Assembly (NCBI GenBank): GCA_013152535.1
Contig: JAADGE010000085.1
Location: 1-64,000 of the forward strand
DNA from: Chlorobiota bacterium
Lineage (GTDB): Bacteria > Bacteroidota > Bacteroidia > Bacteroidales > JAADGE01
Length of the DNA stretch: 64,000 nt
Reading direction: 5' to 3'
Shown here: piece after piece, positions 42,175 through 50,696 of the stretch
Layout of the letters: every line of letters begins with the position of its first letter
Position numbering within the stretch: the first letter of the stretch is position 1
The notes under the pieces: generated by a model
What the model saw: the letters and a program-made list of their open reading frames with translations, nothing else
Databases searched by the model: none
Told to the model about the DNA's origin: nothing
Program-made: the position numbers and the translations under genes

Positions 42175-43278
42175 TTACTGTTTGCTCTTTTTCAGCAGAC
42201 CGGTAATGCCGGTAAAAACAATATAAAAAGGGTGAATTATACTTAAAAAGGGAATGTAAAATAATAATTTTCTTTGTTTGAAATAAATTCCGAATGTTAT
42301 AAGTAAAATTATATCCGGAATAAACTTTATTAGAAATAAAATAAATAAATTATTGAATGTTAATACTTTGAATAAAGTCAAAAAAACAGCTGAAATTAAA
42401 ATTAAGTTTATAATAAAAACAATTATTGATACAAAAATTGTATCAAAATCTGTATAACTGCTGCTTTTTGATGCCCATCTAATTCTTTGTTTACTAAATT
42501 TGTTAAAAGTTTTTTCAGATTTTGTGTAAACAACAGCATCCTCTGATTTTAAATAATGAATTTTTTCAGGATATTTTTTTTTGAAATTGTGAAGTAAGAA
42601 AACATCATCACCGGAAATTTCATTCATATACATAGCATCTTCAAACTCATTAAAAACGGCTTTCTCATACACTAAATTAGCCCCGTTACACATAATAGGA
42701 TGCCCTATTCCGGCAGCTCCTGCAGCGGATGCTGCGAGACTTAAAAAATCAAGTGCTTGTAACCTGCCGAAAAAAGTAGTACCTGTCATTATTACCGGAG
42801 CAATTATCATTTTAGGATTATGTTCTGAGTAATAGTTATAAATTGTTTCCAGCCATTTTTTTTGGTAACGGCAATCAGCATCGGAAGTAACAATAAGTTC
42901 ATTTTCAGCCTTTCTTATACCTTCTTTTAATGCTTGTTTTTTTCCGTTTTTTTCGTTTTGCAGCGATAGAATTCTAAAATTAGGAATATCGGTGATTAAA
43001 TCTGATAATAATGTTTCAGATTTATCTTCAGAATGATCATTGATAAAAATAATTTCATATAAATTTGTATCAAGAGTTTGAGTTTTTAATCCCGAAACCA
43101 ATAACGGAAGATTTATTTGTCCATTCTTAAAAGGAATAAGAACAGAGATTTTTACAATATTTTTTTTTATTTTTTTATTTACAGAAAACGATTTAAGCTG
43201 AATGAATCCGAATATAAAAACTGATATTAAAAAAAAATATAAAGACAGAAAAATAAAACTGATTATTTCCGATACCAT
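42175..43278 (-). CDS. Membrane-bound family 2 glycosyltransferase
   Basis: This 367-residue protein starts with a membrane segment, followed by a GT-A catalytic domain: VSVLIPFKNGQINLPLLVSG, EIIFINDHSEDKSE, the metal-binding TSDADCRYQ, and the acceptor-site motif SKQRIRWASKS of processive GT2 enzymes. Three C-terminal membrane segments follow. It would transfer sugars to a lipid or polysaccharide at the inner membrane; donor and acceptor are unknown. It converges with the T9SS cargo gene, one base between the stop codons, and is not part of a larger sugar cluster. Confidence 0.9.
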   Translation of the reverse strand: MVSEIISFIFLSLYFFLISVFIFGFIQLKSFSVNKKIKKNIVKISVLIPFKNGQINLPLLVSGLKTQTLDTNLYEIIFINDHSEDKSETLLSDLITDIPNFRILSLQNEKNGKKQALKEGIRKAENELIVTSDADCRYQKKWLETIYNYYSEHNPKMIIAPVIMTGTTFFGRLQALDFLSLAASAAGAAGIGHPIMCNGANLVYEKAVFNEFEDAMYMNEISGDDVFLLHNFKKKYPEKIHYLKSEDAVVYTKSEKTFNKFSKQRIRWASKSSSYTDFDTIFVSIIVFIINLILISAVFLTLFKVLTFNNLFILFLIKFIPDIILLITFGIYFKQRKLLFYIPFLSIIHPFYIVFTGITGLLKKSKQ

Positions 43279-43337: not shown

Positions 43338-43706
43338 TTAATACCTTTCAGTAAAATTAAAAGGAATATTTGTAATCTCAGCCATATCTTCGCCTGTTTC
43401 GATAATATCACTGTCTCCTCCGGGGCTAATCCAAGAGATCTTAATTTTTTTACCGGAACCAAAGAAATATTCTAATCGCTCAATTATTTTAATAATTCCT
43501 TTCAGTGAAGCACTGCTGATCATTTCAAATTGAAATTTCCAATTTATGTCACAATCTGTATCAGGTAAATTTTTATCAATCCAGTCTGCAACATTATTAT
43601 AAATTTCGTCAATTAATACGGAATAAGAATTGCCTTTTATTTCAAAATCACAAGTTTCAACTGATAAATGGACGTAGGGTGTGTCTTTTTGAGCGAGTAT
43701 TAACAT
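43338..43706 (-). CDS. DUF1987 / SiaC-like regulatory phosphoprotein
   Basis: This 122-residue protein follows the DUF1987 pattern: YVHLSVETCDFEIKGNSYSV, VADWIDKNLPDTD, SASLKGIIKIIERLEYFFGS, and KKIKISWISPGGDSDIIE. In Pseudomonas SiaC this family is phosphorylated on a Thr by a partner kinase and dephosphorylated by a PP2C phosphatase, controlling a diguanylate cyclase. By my alignment from memory that Thr corresponds to Ser65 here. A second member lies 2.2 kb away next to a SpoIIE phosphatase. No SiaB-type kinase or cyclase is in the window, so the output is unknown. Confidence 0.78.
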   Translation of the reverse strand: MLILAQKDTPYVHLSVETCDFEIKGNSYSVLIDEIYNNVADWIDKNLPDTDCDINWKFQFEMISSASLKGIIKIIERLEYFFGSGKKIKISWISPGGDSDIIETGEDMAEITNIPFNFTERY

Positions 43707-43736
43707 AAAGTACTTTTACTATATTCATATTTTTTA

Positions 43737-43744
43737 CAAATATA
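43737..43744 (-). promoter_or_regulatory. -7 promoter box for the first DUF1987 gene
   Basis: The minus strand reads TATATTTG, 30 bp before the ATG at 43706. Confidence 0.5.
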
Positions 43745-43888
43745 TAAATTACAGAGTAAAATTAATAAAAAACTGTTATTTAGAAAATGAAATATTTTAT
43801 GAAGAAGTGCAAGTGAAAAATAAACTTTTTATATTCATTGTTTGGATGGCGTTTTGATATAAGTATGTAATTTAAGCCATTAATTAAA

Positions 43889-43920
43889 AAAAGAGATTAC
43901 CGGTTTCGATAATCTCTTTT
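43889..43920 (-). terminator. Terminator of the first Roadblock gene
   Basis: AAAAGAGATTA (43889-43899) pairs with TAATCTCTTTT (43910-43920), a perfect 11-bp stem, with a U-run on the minus strand. It lies 34 bp past the stop codon at 43955. Confidence 0.8.
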
Positions 43921-43954
43921 ACTCTTTACAAGATACTGCAAAAAATATAAATTA

Positions 43955-44335
43955 TTACATAGTTTTAACAATTTCACTGCTATAATCTTTTAATAAAGAT
44001 CTTACCAAACCTAAACTGGTATCTTTAGCATTTATTGCTACGTAAATAAGAAATGCATTATCATTTGTAACTGTTAAAATGTGTATCTGGTTATCTAAAG
44101 TAATTAAGATATCGGATATAGTTTCTTTTAAACCCAAAGCATCAATAGCTTTAAACTTAGCTTTCACTACTTCTAGATTATATATAGCCGCTTTTTCCGG
44201 ATCAAACTTAGGATTTTTAGTCCCTGATATAAGAGATAATCCATCTTTTATATCTACTATTGAAAATGCAATAACACCCGGAACGTTGTTCATAACATTT
44301 TCTTTAAACTCTTTTAAAATTTCATTTGTACTCAT
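43955..44335 (-). CDS. Roadblock/LC7-domain protein (MglB-like)
   Basis: This 126-residue protein matches the Roadblock/LC7 fold: an N-terminal helix (STNEILKEFKENVMNNVPGV), a beta strand pair IAFSIVDIKDGLSLISG, a central helix AAIYNLEVVKAKFKAIDALG, and ISDILITLDNQIHILTVTND with a final helix LGLVRSLLKDY. Such proteins regulate small Ras-like GTPases or form scaffolds. No MglA-like GTPase is encoded nearby. It is the most canonical of three Roadblock-like genes in this locus and has its own promoter and terminator. Confidence 0.8.
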   Translation of the reverse strand: MSTNEILKEFKENVMNNVPGVIAFSIVDIKDGLSLISGTKNPKFDPEKAAIYNLEVVKAKFKAIDALGLKETISDILITLDNQIHILTVTNDNAFLIYVAINAKDTSLGLVRSLLKDYSSEIVKTM

Positions 44336-44361
44336 ATGTATATATTTTAATGTTAGTGATG

Positions 44362-44369
44362 CAAAAGTA
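44362..44369 (-). promoter_or_regulatory. -7 promoter box for the first Roadblock gene
   Basis: The minus strand reads TACTTTTG (TAnnTTTG), 26 bp before the ATG at 44335. Confidence 0.5.
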
Positions 44370-44433
44370 AATTTTTTTTTATAAACAGAAAATTAAATGG
44401 TAAATAATATAGGTAAAAACACTTAAATTATAA

Positions 44434-44802
44434 TTATTTTAATACTTTAATTAATGCTTTATGTGCATCAGGTATTGCAACGTTTAGTAAGAATCCGAGA
44501 TTAATTTCTTTCTTATTTATAAGTACTGACCATTGATATTTATCCATAATGAGAACAATTACTAAAGAGTCATCGTCAAAGTCCATTAAGTAATAATCTT
44601 GAAGCCCGGGTAAATCTGCATCTTTCAACATTTTTGAAATATAACCGGTAACTTGTTCCAAAACAGCAGTTAATTTTGTATCAGTATTAAATCCTGCAAT
44701 TGATTGACCTGTACCTGTCATCCGAATGTCACAAGCAGTCAGCCCTTTCCCTAAATTGTCTTTTAATGTTTCAATTGCATTGTTAAATTCTTTTATATTC
44801 AT
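44434..44802 (-). CDS. Roadblock-like protein, second copy
   Basis: This 122-residue protein is related to the C-terminal domain of the gene directly upstream: both run IKxFxxxIExLxDDLG-like, then a G-x-S-I/V strand, a T-D/N helix, YYLMDF or FYLLDL, a strand ending in LI/IF, then NKxEINLG/NKTKIKLG with a C-terminal helix. The fold resembles Roadblock/LC7, but the match is weaker than for the 126-residue neighbour. It lies 13 bp after the DUF4388-fusion gene, so the two are co-transcribed. Confidence 0.65.
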   Translation of the reverse strand: MNIKEFNNAIETLKDNLGKGLTACDIRMTGTGQSIAGFNTDTKLTAVLEQVTGYISKMLKDADLPGLQDYYLMDFDDDSLVIVLIMDKYQWSVLINKKEINLGFLLNVAIPDAHKALIKVLK

Positions 44803-44815
44803 TAATATTTTGTTT

Positions 44816-45760
44816 TTAATTGTTTATTGATTTTTTATAATCGTTAATTAATAAGGGTTTTAAGATGCTTAATAAATAACCTAATTTTATCTTTGTCTTA
44901 TTAAAAATTAAAGCAATATGATGATTTTTGAAAATTAAAATAAATAAAAGATAATTATTTTTCAAATCCAATAAATAAAAGCTGTTCTTTTTCTCGAATT
45001 TTGATTTTAAAAATAAGTTATTTATTGATTTATGAAACTTCGCAAATACAACTGTCTGATTAGTTTTAAGGCTATATACCGATTCTCCGTTATCAGCGGA
45101 ATAAACGCTTCCGGAAATAAAGGTATCTCCTAAATCATCTTGTAATTGAGTAAATGATTGTTTAATTATATTTATGTTAATCTTTGTCGAATTTTTCGGA
45201 ATGGTTTTTTTTGATTTTTTGATTTTTTCACTATGAATAATTTCACTGAAATATTCCTTTAAATCTCCTGTTTGTCCTACCTTGTTATATTTAATTTTAA
45301 CAATATCCTTTTTTTCAGTATCTTTTATAATTGTATTAAAAAACAATTTAATATCTTCAGGTAATGGCTCAATCTCAACAATTGCACCTTCCGAACAAAC
45401 AATTTTAGCAGGTTTATTATTAAAATTAAAATTTATTTCTGCACTGATAGCGGAAATTTCAATAAAATGTAAAATGTTTCTGAGTTCTTTATAGTCAAGT
45501 TCAAATTCGCTGTTCCATTTTTGATAAAAGAAACTTCCTTTAGTCCAATTCAAAATTTCTTTTGCGTTATTAATATGATAGTCATTATTCAATACGGCAT
45601 CTATGAGATTTCCGTCTTTTAAAAATAATGCTCCGGTATCATTGCCGCTTTCTGCGTTTAGGATGCAGGTAAACGAAATATAATCTGTAATTGACCGAAG
45701 CGGAATACGCTCAATATTCCCTTTAAATTTTAAAGGTGCAAGTTTCTCTTTAATGTACAT
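44816..45760 (-). CDS. DUF4388-like domain fused to a Roadblock-like domain
   Basis: This 314-residue protein has an N-terminal DUF4388 (PATAN)-like domain (~residues 1-90), recognised by RSITDYISFTCILNAESGND, GALFLKDGNLIDAVLNND and EILNWTKGSFFYQ. A Lys-rich linker (~185-200) leads to a C-terminal Roadblock-like domain (~205-314) homologous to the neighbouring 122-residue protein. DUF4388 domains occur in bacterial signalling and motility proteins beside Roadblock/MglA switches. It probably acts in the cytoplasm as a scaffold or sensor. It begins the minus-strand operon, divergent from the second DUF1987 gene. Confidence 0.65.
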   Translation of the reverse strand: MYIKEKLAPLKFKGNIERIPLRSITDYISFTCILNAESGNDTGALFLKDGNLIDAVLNNDYHINNAKEILNWTKGSFFYQKWNSEFELDYKELRNILHFIEISAISAEINFNFNNKPAKIVCSEGAIVEIEPLPEDIKLFFNTIIKDTEKKDIVKIKYNKVGQTGDLKEYFSEIIHSEKIKKSKKTIPKNSTKININIIKQSFTQLQDDLGDTFISGSVYSADNGESVYSLKTNQTVVFAKFHKSINNLFLKSKFEKKNSFYLLDLKNNYLLFILIFKNHHIALIFNKTKIKLGYLLSILKPLLINDYKKSINN

Positions 45761-45823
45761 AGGTATTTAAAAATTATTTAATACTCAAATTTTTGTAATA
45801 AGTTTTTTGTGTAGATATTGTTG

Positions 45824-45831
45824 CAAAGTTA
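45824..45831 (-). promoter_or_regulatory. -7 promoter box for the DUF4388-Roadblock operon
   Basis: The minus strand reads TAACTTTG, 63 bp before the ATG at 45760. Confidence 0.5.
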
Positions 45832-45870
45832 AAAAAATATTGTTAAAAATAAAAGATATTAATATTTTTA

Positions 45871-45878
45871 TATATTTG
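45871..45878 (+). promoter_or_regulatory. -7 promoter box for the second DUF1987 gene
   Basis: TATATTTG lies 13 bp before the ATG at 45892, back to back with the minus-strand promoter. Confidence 0.55.
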
Positions 45879-45891
45879 TTGCGTTAAACAA

Positions 45892-46263
45892 ATGCTTATG
45901 AAACAGAATAAAACAAAAAATAAACCTTTTATTAATCTTTCACTAAACCTATGTAAAATTGAAATCAAGGGCCCTTCCTATTCCGAAGATATTGATGATA
46001 TTTATGCAGAAATAATAAAGTGGATGCAAGATAATATCCCGAAAATGAAATGTGAATTAATTTGTGAATTTCATTTTAATATTCTTAACAGTATTTCTCA
46101 TAAGAATTTATTGCAAATATTTTCTTTATTATCTGAGTTTTCTGAAAAAGGAAAGAAAATGAAAATTGTTTGGTATGCAGATAAAAATGATGAGGATATT
46201 TTGGAACTTGCTGATGATATTTCTGAATTGTTTAATTTGCAGTTTAAAGTAGTTGAAAAATAA
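45892..46263 (+). CDS. DUF1987 / SiaC-like regulatory phosphoprotein, second copy
   Basis: This 123-residue protein shares the pattern of the 43338-43706 gene: FINLSLNLCKIEIKGPSYSE, IIKWMQDNIPKMKC, ISHKNLLQIFSLLSEFSEKG, and KMKIVWYADKNDEDILELAD. The residue aligned with the phosphorylated Thr of SiaC is Ser67 (alignment from memory). It is followed 30 bp later by a PAS-SpoIIE phosphatase, the same pairing as SiaC with its PP2C phosphatase SiaA, so that protein is its likely dephosphorylating partner. An alternative ATG lies two codons downstream. Confidence 0.78.
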   Translation: MLMKQNKTKNKPFINLSLNLCKIEIKGPSYSEDIDDIYAEIIKWMQDNIPKMKCELICEFHFNILNSISHKNLLQIFSLLSEFSEKGKKMKIVWYADKNDEDILELADDISELFNLQFKVVEK

Positions 46264-46293
46264 TTAACTAACAAAATATATAATTCATACTTT

Positions 46294-47517
46294 ATGGAAG
46301 ATAAATTTCAAAAAATTGTCAGAGATTTAGGGGAAGGAATAGTAATTGTAAATTTTAAGGAAGAATTTATATTTGCGAATTCTTCAGCTTGCAAAATTTT
46401 TGATGTTCCGAACGGAAAATTAATTAACAAAACTCTGAAAGATTTTGTTGACGATGAAGAATGGAAAAAAGTTCTTAATCAAACTTCAAAACGTAAAATC
46501 GGGGAGCCGGGAAAATATCATTTAGAAATTAATACAAATAATCATAATAAAAAAATGTTATTGGTTACGGCAAAGCCTGAGTACAATGAATCCGGAGAAG
46601 TCATTGATACTGTTGCAGTTTTTTTTGATATAACTGAAAACATTAATGAACATAAGAAATTAAAAGAATTTAATCAACAATTTGAAGAATTGGAAGGTCA
46701 ATTATTTGAACAAGCCATTGAAGCCGATATCCGGAAAAAAGAAGCAGAAAAGCTTTTAAAGCATTTTAATGACAGTATTAATTATGCAAAAACAATACAA
46801 TATTCATTATTGCCGTCTTTATCTCATCTGAATAAAATGCTAACAAAAGATGTTTTTGTTCTTTATAAACCCAAACATACCATAGGAGGAGACTTTTATT
46901 ATATGAAACGAAGAGATGATTCTATAATTTTTGCAGTAGCAGATTGTACCGGACACGGTGTTTCGGGAGCTTTGATTTCAATGCTGGGAATTACTTTTTT
47001 AAATGACATCATTGATCAAAATTTATTATTTAATTCCTCTGAAATACTTAGTAAGTTAAGAAAAAAAATAAAACATACCTTTAAAGAGTACGGTAACGAT
47101 TTTCAAAACAAAAACGGGATGGACATTGCACTTTGTATTATAAGTTTAAAAACAAATATGATGCAATTTTCCGGAGCATTTAATCCTTTGTATATAATCA
47201 GAAATAATGAATTAACAGAATATAAAGCAACAAAAAATCCGATTGCATATTATCCTGTCGAAAAAGAGTTTGAATCTCATAATATACAATTATTTAAAAA
47301 TGATACTTTCTATTTATTCTCCGATGGTTTTCAGGATCAGTTAGGAGGTGAGTCAGAAAAAAAATATTCTAAAAAAAAATTTCGTGAATTTCTTTTAAAA
47401 ATACATAAGGAAGATATGACAGAACAAAAGAAATTATTAGAAAAAGAATTTGTCAGTTGGCAATCTGAAAATGATCAGGTGGATGATATGACCGTTATGG
47501 GAGTGAAATGGGATTAA
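46294..47517 (+). CDS. PAS-domain SpoIIE/PP2C-family phosphatase
   Basis: This 407-residue soluble protein has a PAS domain (~1-120: GEGIVIVNFKEEFIFANSSA; VAVFFDITENINEHK), a coiled-coil linker (~125-165) and a C-terminal SpoIIE-type phosphatase. The metal-binding motifs are intact: GGDFYYMKRRDD, VADCTGHGVSGALISMLG, YLFSDGFQDQLGG and ENDQVDDMTVMGV. It would remove phosphate from a Ser/Thr regulatory protein; the DUF1987 protein 30 bp upstream is the obvious candidate. The PAS domain suggests a cytoplasmic ligand or redox signal. No partner kinase is in the window. Confidence 0.9.
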   Translation: MEDKFQKIVRDLGEGIVIVNFKEEFIFANSSACKIFDVPNGKLINKTLKDFVDDEEWKKVLNQTSKRKIGEPGKYHLEINTNNHNKKMLLVTAKPEYNESGEVIDTVAVFFDITENINEHKKLKEFNQQFEELEGQLFEQAIEADIRKKEAEKLLKHFNDSINYAKTIQYSLLPSLSHLNKMLTKDVFVLYKPKHTIGGDFYYMKRRDDSIIFAVADCTGHGVSGALISMLGITFLNDIIDQNLLFNSSEILSKLRKKIKHTFKEYGNDFQNKNGMDIALCIISLKTNMMQFSGAFNPLYIIRNNELTEYKATKNPIAYYPVEKEFESHNIQLFKNDTFYLFSDGFQDQLGGESEKKYSKKKFREFLLKIHKEDMTEQKKLLEKEFVSWQSENDQVDDMTVMGVKWD

Positions 47518-47954: not shown

Positions 47955-50696
47955 ATGAGTAACATGAAAAGAGTTTATACTTTCGGAAACAAACAAGCCG
48001 AAGGAAAAACAGAAATGAAAAATTTGCTCGGCGGAAAAGGAGCAAATCTTGCTGAAATGAATCTTGTAGGTGTCCCTGTCCCTCCCGGATTCACAATTAC
48101 AACTGAAGTTTGTACGGAATACAATAAAAACGGAAAAGATAAAACTGTTGACGCTTTAAAATCTGATGTTGAAAAATCGGTAAAACAAATTGAAAATATA
48201 ATGGGAACCAAGTTCGGAGATAAAGAAAATCCTCTGTTGGTTTCGGTACGTTCGGGTGCAAGAGTTTCAATGCCGGGCATGATGGATACGGTTTTAAATC
48301 TTGGTTTGAATAAAGATGCTGTGGAAGGTATTGCCAAAAAATCCGGTAATGCTCGTTTTGCATGGGATTCTTACCGTCGATTTGTTCAAATGTACGGCGA
48401 TGTTGTACTCGGTATGAAACCCGAATCAAAAGAAGATATCGATCCTTTTGAAGCCATTATGGATGAAGTAAAAAAAGCAAAAGGTGTAGAAGATGATACA
48501 CAATTGGAAGTTGATGATTTAAAAGAACTTGTAATAAAATTTAAAGCTGCTGTTAAAAAACAAACCGGACATGATTTTCCTGATAATCCTTGGGAACAAC
48601 TCTGGGGAGCAGTAATGGCAGTGTTCGACAGTTGGAATACTGACCGAGCCATATATTACAGAAAAATGAATAAAATACCGGAAGAGTGGGGAACTGCCGT
48701 AAATGTTCAAGCCATGGTATTCGGAAATATGGGACAAAATTCTGCAACAGGTGTTGCTTTTACCAGAGATGCCGGTACCGGAGAAAATATATTTACCGGT
48801 GAATATTTAATAAATGCTCAGGGAGAAGATGTTGTTGCCGGTGTAAGAACTCCGCAACAAATTACTTTGGAAGGTTCAAAACGATGGGCAAAATTGGCTA
48901 ATGTTTCGGAAGACGAAAGAGCTTCAAAATATCCTTCTTTGGAAGAAATAATGCCTGAGCAATATAAGGAATTAAATACTATTCAAGAAAAACTTGAAAA
49001 ACATTATAAAGATATGCAAGATCTTGAATTTACGATTCAAGACGGAAAACTTTGGTTGTTACAAACTCGTAACGGAAAACGAACCGGAGCTGCAATGGTA
49101 AAAATAGCTATGGACATGCTGAAAGAAGGTATGATTGACGAAAAAACAGCAATTATGCGTCAGGAACCTGAGAAATTAGACGAACTTCTTCATCCTGTTT
49201 TAGACGAACTTCTTCATCCTGTTTTTGAAAAAGAAGCTATTGCCGGAGCAAATGTTGTTGCTAAAGGTTTACCTGCATCTCCGGGAGCTGCAACCGGTCA
49301 AATCGTATTTTTTGCCGATGAAGCTGATAAATTTGATAATTCAATTTTAGTACGTATCGAAACTTCTCCCGAAGACCTTGAAGGAATGAATGTTGCAAAA
49401 GGTATTTTGACTGAAAGAGGCGGAATGACTTCTCATGCTGCAGTTGTTGCCAGAGGAATGGGGAAATGTTGTGTTTCAGGTGCAGGCGAAATAAAAATTA
49501 ACTATAAAGAACGAACTTTAACAACAGGCGGAGTAACTTTTAAACAAGGAGATTGGATTTCCTTAAACGGTTCAACCGGTGAAGTTTATGAAGGTAAAAC
49601 GGCCACTATTGATTCCGAAGTAGGAGGTGATTTTGCAGAATTAATGGAACTTGCCGATAAACATGCTCGCATGTATGTAAGAACAAATGCTGATACACCG
49701 AGAGATGCTGCTGTTGCACGTAATTTCGGTGCCAAAGGTATCGGGCTTACCAGAACGGAACATATGTTCTTTGAAGGTGAAAAAATTGTTGCCATGCGTG
49801 AAATGATTCTGGCTGAAGATGTTAAAGGAAGAATAGAAGCACTTGACAGATTATTACCCATACAACGTAAAGATTTTGAAGGTATTTTTGAAGCAATGCA
49901 GGATTTACCTGTTACGGTTCGTCTGTTAGATCCGCCTTTACATGAGTTTGTTCCTCATGATGAAGCCGGACAAAAAGAAATGGCAGAAGTAATGGGCGTG
50001 AGTGTTGAGGATATTAAAGAAAAAGTTGAAGATTTATCTGAAGTGAACCCGATGCTCGGACACCGCGGTTGTCGCTTGGGAAATACTTATCCCGAAATAA
50101 CCGAAATGCAAACTCGTGCTATTATTGAAGCTGCTCTGAATCTTAAGAAAAAAGGTATAAAAGCTCATCCTGAAATTATGATTCCTTTAACAGGAACCTT
50201 GGCGGAAATGAAGATGCAGGAAGATATTGTGAGAACTACAATAGCTAAAATATTTGAAGAAAGAAACGATTCAATTGATTACATGGTAGGAACCATGATT
50301 GAAATTCCGCGTGCGGCACTTACGGCTGATTTAATTGCTCAGTCTGCCGAATTTTTCTCTTTCGGAACTAATGATTTAACTCAAATGACTTTCGGATATT
50401 CACGAGACGATGCCGGTAAATTTTTACCGATTTACATTGAAAAAGGTCTTTTGAAAAATGATCCTTTTGAAGTATTAGACCAAGAAGGCGTCGGACAATT
50501 GGTTGAAATGGCAGTTAAAAAAGGTCGTCAAACCCGTCCGAATATCAAACTCGGAATTTGCGGTGAACACGGCGGAGAGCCTTCTTCTGTTGAGTTCTGC
50601 CACAGAACAGGGCTTGATTACGTAAGTTGTTCTCCTTATCGTGTGCCTATTGCAAGACTGGCAGCAGCTCAAGCAGCAGTAAGAGAAACTTTATAA
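47955..50696 (+). CDS. ppdK: Pyruvate, phosphate dikinase
   Basis: The 913-residue enzyme interconverts pyruvate and phosphoenolpyruvate using ATP and phosphate (PPi in reverse), typical of anaerobes. The N-terminal nucleotide domain has LLGGKGANLAEMNLVGVPVP and VSVRSGARVSMPGMMDTVLN. The swivelling domain has GGMTSHAAVVARGMGKCCVS, with the phospho-His and the preceding regulatory Thr. The PEP domain includes IGLTRTEHMFF, MLGHRGCRLG, FFSFGTNDLTQMTFG and GICGEHGGEP. An 8-residue tandem repeat LDELLHPV-LDELLHPV before the swivelling domain comes from a perfect 24-bp duplication at 49176-49223. It is monocistronic. Confidence 0.96.
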   Translation: MSNMKRVYTFGNKQAEGKTEMKNLLGGKGANLAEMNLVGVPVPPGFTITTEVCTEYNKNGKDKTVDALKSDVEKSVKQIENIMGTKFGDKENPLLVSVRSGARVSMPGMMDTVLNLGLNKDAVEGIAKKSGNARFAWDSYRRFVQMYGDVVLGMKPESKEDIDPFEAIMDEVKKAKGVEDDTQLEVDDLKELVIKFKAAVKKQTGHDFPDNPWEQLWGAVMAVFDSWNTDRAIYYRKMNKIPEEWGTAVNVQAMVFGNMGQNSATGVAFTRDAGTGENIFTGEYLINAQGEDVVAGVRTPQQITLEGSKRWAKLANVSEDERASKYPSLEEIMPEQYKELNTIQEKLEKHYKDMQDLEFTIQDGKLWLLQTRNGKRTGAAMVKIAMDMLKEGMIDEKTAIMRQEPEKLDELLHPVLDELLHPVFEKEAIAGANVVAKGLPASPGAATGQIVFFADEADKFDNSILVRIETSPEDLEGMNVAKGILTERGGMTSHAAVVARGMGKCCVSGAGEIKINYKERTLTTGGVTFKQGDWISLNGSTGEVYEGKTATIDSEVGGDFAELMELADKHARMYVRTNADTPRDAAVARNFGAKGIGLTRTEHMFFEGEKIVAMREMILAEDVKGRIEALDRLLPIQRKDFEGIFEAMQDLPVTVRLLDPPLHEFVPHDEAGQKEMAEVMGVSVEDIKEKVEDLSEVNPMLGHRGCRLGNTYPEITEMQTRAIIEAALNLKKKGIKAHPEIMIPLTGTLAEMKMQEDIVRTTIAKIFEERNDSIDYMVGTMIEIPRAALTADLIAQSAEFFSFGTNDLTQMTFGYSRDDAGKFLPIYIEKGLLKNDPFEVLDQEGVGQLVEMAVKKGRQTRPNIKLGICGEHGGEPSSVEFCHRTGLDYVSCSPYRVPIARLAAAQAAVRETL
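49176..49223 (+). repeat. Perfect 24-bp tandem duplication inside ppdK
   Basis: The 24-bp unit at 49176-49199 is repeated exactly at 49200-49223, in frame, duplicating LDELLHPV in the protein. Perfect identity suggests a recent event. Confidence 0.9.

Follow-up and report, generated by a model that had tools for sequence, protein, structure and literature searches.

A six-gene locus in the window (the whole 64,000-nucleotide stretch of DNA analysed here, contig C79 of genome G000) brings two SiaC (DUF1987) proteins and a PAS-SpoIIE phosphatase together with three Roadblock-fold proteins. We read one of the SiaC proteins and the phosphatase (genes E and F) as a putative satellite arm of a partner switch of the SiaABC type; the arm has no kinase of its own, would be served by one encoded on contig C8 of the same genome and would act on a PATAN-Roadblock output. 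We put the probability of this reading at about 0.4.

The six genes, lettered A to F, were borne out by an open reading frame check as real open frames in the positions and order given to them by a sequence-only reading of this DNA (Table 1). That reading had proposed a single signalling module, an idea that is not supported: the locus appears to comprise three transcription units, and its D-C and E-F halves vary separately in relatives. The division into D-C-B, E-F and A alone is inferred from spacing, strand and a terminator. E-F is divergent from D across a gap of 131 bp. The terminator lies 34 bp past the stop of B, between D-C-B and A (the scan of the region found one such structure against 1.1 expected by chance), and A begins approximately 180 bp beyond it. 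The Bacteroidota -7/-33 promoter motif was no more frequent at the locus than expected by chance. The glycosyltransferase gene that marks one edge of the locus is downstream of rpoA-rplQ.

Table 1. Features of the locus and its flanks in window coordinates.
Feature	Coordinates	Strand	Size or structure	Basis
Flank: glycosyltransferase family 2, one edge of variable slot	42175..43278	-		Pfam
A: SiaC (DUF1987)	43338..43706	-	122 aa	Pfam
Intrinsic terminator	43889..43920	-	14-pair stem + T tail	
B: Roadblock-fold protein	43955..44335	-	126 aa	AF2 + structure comparison
C: Roadblock-fold protein	44434..44802	-	122 aa	AF2 + structure comparison
D: DUF4388 (PATAN) + C-like Roadblock domain	44816..45760	-	314 aa	Pfam, C-family profile
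E: SiaC	45892..46263	+	123 aa	Pfam, trees
F: PAS - coiled region - SpoIIE/PP2C phosphatase	46294..47517	+	407 aa	
Flank: pyruvate phosphate dikinase (PPDK), other slot edge	47955..50696	+		Pfam

Both A and E match the SiaC/DUF1987 model PF09345 over positions 3-119 of 120, at 86 bits (E=1.7e-24) and 90 bits (E=9.1e-26), respectively, against a cut-off of 24.5 bits, and both fall below the NCBIfam SiaC equivalog cut-off. Each has a serine at the expected phosphorylation site: Ser65 in A and Ser67 in E occupy the alignment position of Thr68 in Pseudomonas aeruginosa SiaC, a residue that is phosphorylated by SiaB and dephosphorylated by SiaA (PMC7647112). The two had been called duplicates, and this description has to be dropped. 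They are 37% identical, and in the SiaC tree (52 rows; the tree program warned of long branches) A clusters with same-slot copies from the genus relatives G006 and G012 as well as with copies at two further loci (support 100/98), while E is placed elsewhere. A sister relationship is rejected by the AU test (p=4e-6), which rules out a local duplication; the tree indicates that A and E split long ago. Orthologues of A adjoin the same glycosyltransferase gene in G006 (69% identical) and G012 (58%), with no phosphatase alongside. A thus belongs to an orphan subclade, and we read it as an older SiaC, separate from E, which may use the same kinase and phosphatase as E.

Pfam assigns F a PAS domain (8e-11) and a SpoIIE domain (4e-20; 73 bits versus a cut-off of 25). 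Its SpoIIE/PP2C domain has the metal-binding Asp motifs, which read GGDF (198), DCTGHG (217), SDGF (343) and DDMT (397). Only the C-terminal half of the protein, residues 126-405, matches the NCBIfam SiaA phosphatase model (3.2e-53), and it does so below the equivalog cut-off (181 bits versus 700). The earlier description of F as a PAS-SpoIIE phosphatase stands, and the enzyme is SiaA-like.

SiaC proteins fall into two deep clades (100/99). Those of clade 1 mostly have Thr at the phosphosite and often have a kinase alongside; those of clade 2 have Ser in all 26 rows checked. At the base of clade 2 are nine slow-evolving SiaC proteins, eight of which adjoin a facing two-domain DUF6272 protein in conserved order, in many cases with an Hsp90-like gene alongside. 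The other 27 are fast-evolving, derived and have no DUF6272 kinase nearby; many are paired with a phosphatase of the F clade, and their neighbours differ, being hemerythrins or Roadblocks. For kinase adjacency in these 27 versus the other 25 SiaC, Fisher's test gives p ~1e-8, a value inflated by the use of related loci of our own choosing. In the phosphatase tree, the phosphatases adjoining derived clade-2 SiaC, F included, make up one clade of 15 rows (support 100/99), separate from those adjoining clade-1 SiaC; 14 of the 15 adjoin a clade-2 SiaC, and the sole exception, on C55, is beside no SiaC. Outside this clade are the second, TPR-type phosphatase of some hemerythrin loci and a TPR-type phosphatase near the C8 hub described below. 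Because the phosphatases beside clade-2 SiaC form a clade of their own, SiaC and phosphatase have diversified together. With high probability, E and F constitute a working SiaC-phosphatase pair.

The genome encodes 14 SiaC, 24 SpoIIE and 11 DUF6272 (SiaB-like) domains; well-assembled genomes of the genus carry about 10-19 DUF1987 copies each. All 11 DUF6272 domains lie outside the window's contig, as had been foreseen in the proposal that the kinase is missing locally and encoded elsewhere, and among them is one good candidate for the SiaC clade of E. This is the two-domain SiaB-like protein of C8, whose first domain has SLQN-RH and GGGGLG motifs (intact N and G boxes) and whose second is degenerate, the Gly-rich motif being lost. 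Nine further DUF6272 domains sit in other proteins. On C8 (L046:3648-8552), an Hsp90-like gene lies by the hub SiaC and the convergent kinase gene, an order that recurs in L083, L105 and L112 and is kept in several genus members. The basal SiaC of relative G005 has no kinase alongside, and a six-frame search beside it found no decayed kinase. Elsewhere in the window's genome (G000:C76:12942-14411, L045), a 489-aa protein combines two DUF6272 domains with SiaC, placing kinase and substrate in one chain. On phylogenetic and positional grounds, a hub kinase with satellite SiaC proteins is plausible, at even odds or somewhat under. Well short of even odds is a hub-and-spoke arrangement in which one slow-evolving SiaC and a two-domain kinase (one domain active, one degenerate) would serve many kinase-less satellites, many of these having a phosphatase of the dedicated clade and partners of their own (hemerythrins, or PATAN-Roadblock proteins here).

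The other half of the locus was recognised by fold. B and C match no Pfam or NCBIfam family, and a PDB sequence search gave nothing useful; the Roadblock model PF03259 (Robl_LC7) has zero matches in the whole genome at E<=10 and none among the scanned relatives of C. Their proposed Roadblock identity is upheld by predicted structures, compared by VIA, and not by sequence models. The AlphaFold model of C (pLDDT 88; 15-row alignment) has the Roadblock order of helix-2 strands-helix-3 strands-helix, with Z 17.0 to Roadblock3 (rmsd 1.8 over 114) and Z 16.3 to MglB. That of B, predicted from a single sequence with moderate confidence (pLDDT 71), gives Z 13.6 to Roadblock3 (rmsd 2.5 over 116) and Z 12.9 to MglB. 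The models place B and C clearly as divergent members of the Roadblock/LC7 group. B had no detectable homologue among 197 relatives; with its Roadblock fold predicted from one sequence, it was possibly acquired or is evolving very fast. The proposed DUF4388-Roadblock fusion in D was likewise found. Pfam detects DUF4388, which we take to be the PATAN domain of the literature, at E=2.2e-6 (28.2 bits versus a cut-off of 25; 27.3 bits in G009 and G012), and the C-terminal domain is homologous to C, at 6.6e-39 against a C-family profile that included this domain as a row and at about 1e-8 when C and D are compared independently of the profile.

The C family is sparsely distributed in Bacteroidota, and among 395 genomes of the phylum the window's genome is its sole bearer. 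At two Flavobacteriales loci, a longer protein precedes C, with a C-like C-terminal domain that was detected in one (L064) and is alignable in the other (L065). Because these loci repeat the order of longer protein and C, the D-C half probably functions as a two-protein Roadblock unit. At three other Bacteroidota loci (L061, L062 and L058), a C-family gene, with neither D nor SiaC, adjoins a divergent 469-aa protein and lies downstream of an HMG-CoA reductase/GHMP-kinase-like/VTT/NMP-kinase-like set, in which HMG-CoA reductase was identified in L061 alone.

The resemblance of the predicted B and C folds to MglB bears on an alternative in which B, C and D would be MglB-like activators or exchangers of a Ras-like GTPase encoded at another site, with the SiaC switch regulating that system. 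The occurrence of MglB genes near PATAN genes, already noted in PMC4316618 (citing Makarova 2006), is in line with it. However, B and C are outside the Robl_LC7 model, and the small GTPase partner that had been suggested did not emerge: a PF00025 search of the genome (98% complete, 92 contigs) found no MglA-like gene. It gave weak matches only, in frames of 295-843 aa whose length marks them as presumably translation-type GTPases (Era, Der, EF-Tu and similar), and no single-domain GTPase of 180-200 aa, although GTPases of the Rup type, which are reported in Bacteroidetes/Chlorobi (PMC4316618), may escape this model. We consider GTPase control very improbable.

Whether the two halves belong together was addressed by comparing the slot between the glycosyltransferase and PPDK genes in 14 genomes of the genus (relatives carry G numbers). 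It holds nothing in G001, A only in G006, A and a fused D-C in G012, the E-phosphatase pair only in G008 (where the contig ends), C-D divergent from E-phosphatase in G007, the same plus a second phosphatase in G009 and G013, and A-B-C-D divergent from E-F in the window. Because its contents vary between A alone, A with a D-C fusion, and nothing, the slot is a site of turnover. The conserved clustering looked for in relatives was found in part. D-C is divergent from SiaC-phosphatase in 4 of the 14 genomes (the window, G009, G013 and G007), C, E and F of the three relatives being 44-60% identical to those of the window and D 26-50%. The halves also occur alone: D-C is without SiaC in G005 and apparently in G008, and C-family genes are without SiaC in all five loci outside the genus, which belong to other Bacteroidota groups. 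In G008, a D homologue that is 81% identical to its G007 counterpart is found beside dnaA at a contig end, although the SiaC-phosphatase pair remains in the slot. Since each half also occurs alone, the link between D-C and SiaC-phosphatase is suggestive only. We put the odds of a functional link between E-F and D-C as roughly even.

The halves may instead be neighbours by chance, with E-phosphatase, D-C and the orphan SiaC A kept independently in the slot and sharing no function. The free variation of the slot within the genus fits this alternative, as do the solitary D-C of G005 and the solitary C-family genes of other orders. Moreover, G007 and G008 are near-identical in SiaC, yet D adjoins SiaC in one only, and adjacency of SiaC and SpoIIE is common in a genome with so many genes of each. 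On the other hand, the divergent D/E arrangement with its short gap is kept in four genomes at ~50% protein identity, and within the slot D-C never occurs without a SiaC, which is A in G012 and E in the other genomes. We regard chance neighbourhood as a serious contender, though short of an even chance.

Among the closest relatives of the E-F pair are those at a second, conserved kind of locus, which combines a single SiaC gene or two with three to five bacteriohemerythrin genes, lacks a kinase and usually includes an F-clade phosphatase, present where the contig reaches that far. Such loci were found in six other genus members (L069, L070, L071, L072, L073 and L076) and in the window's own genome (G000:C76:389-5934, L045:392-5934). 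In one of them (L070:949-4356, G001:C6), a gene for a WD40-repeat protein with a C-terminal caspase domain (Peptidase_C14) lies immediately before the tandem SiaC-hemerythrin genes, on their upstream side. No Roadblock genes were found at the other SiaC loci of the genus that were examined, which have hemerythrins or unrelated genes instead. The same switch core is found with quite different neighbours, which favours a role for these as partners, inputs or outputs. The hemerythrin loci put sensor-like proteins, not obvious outputs, at the same position by the same SiaC-phosphatase pair, as would be expected if the direction of control were reversed. In that case the PATAN-Roadblock complex would control F or E as a sensor or localiser, and the protein on which E really acts would be encoded elsewhere. 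Polarity and scaffold systems do employ Roadblock and PATAN proteins (PMC4316618, PMC9481161). F carries a PAS sensor domain of its own, however, and we judge the reversed direction unlikely.

What the analysis shows for the satellite-arm reading is which genes are present, how their products are predicted to fold, and their clades and synteny; phosphorylation, the identity of the kinase and binding between E and D-C are inferred, as follows. The PAS domain of F would detect a signal, and F would dephosphorylate E at Ser67. The phosphate would be added by a kinase from another locus, the best candidate being the one tandem-domain SiaB-like protein of C8. Unphosphorylated E would bind the output, for which the likeliest candidate is the divergently encoded PATAN-Roadblock/Roadblock complex of D and C, plus B in this genome. 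This complex would be a dimeric scaffold, rather than a GTPase activator. If so, the states of many SiaC proteins would be set by a single kinase that they share and by numerous phosphatases dedicated to them, an inverted fan compared with the usual partner switch of one kinase and one target. Control by SiaC would extend beyond a cyclase to Roadblock scaffolds and hemerythrins, and testable roles would follow for the DUF1987 copies of the genus and for Roadblock proteins without a GTPase partner.

The combination had been called unrecognised, and in a literature search covering few subscription journals we found no prior description of SiaC or DUF1987 together with Roadblock, with DUF6272 or with partner switching in the phylum, nor of a PATAN-Roadblock fusion adjoining a SiaC switch, nor of a SiaC network with hub and satellites. 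The parts, namely the SiaABC switch and MglB genes near PATAN genes, are already known; the arrangement is new. As in SiaABCD of P. aeruginosa (PMC7647112, PMC8457831), the SiaC phosphosite is at the same alignment position, the PP2C C-terminal half of F matches SiaA, and the genome has SiaB-type kinases. Unlike SiaABCD, the window's locus lacks both a kinase and a diguanylate cyclase (SiaD), with no GGDEF match by Pfam in the six genes and two flanking genes; A and E have Ser for Thr, PAS replaces the N-terminal part of SiaA, and Roadblock genes adjoin. The MglB/Roadblock-LC7 genes with PATAN neighbours, as noted in PMC4316618 (citing Makarova 2006), share the Roadblock fold and a PATAN domain close by. 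Here, in contrast, PATAN is fused within D, no MglA-like GTPase was found, the proteins are outside PF03259, and a SiaC-phosphatase pair is linked. The closest paralogous arrangement is that of the SiaC-SiaC-hemerythrin x3-5-SpoIIE loci of the genus, which have the same SiaC and phosphatase clades and likewise no kinase, but in which bacteriohemerythrins replace the Roadblock proteins and the SiaC genes are in true tandem.
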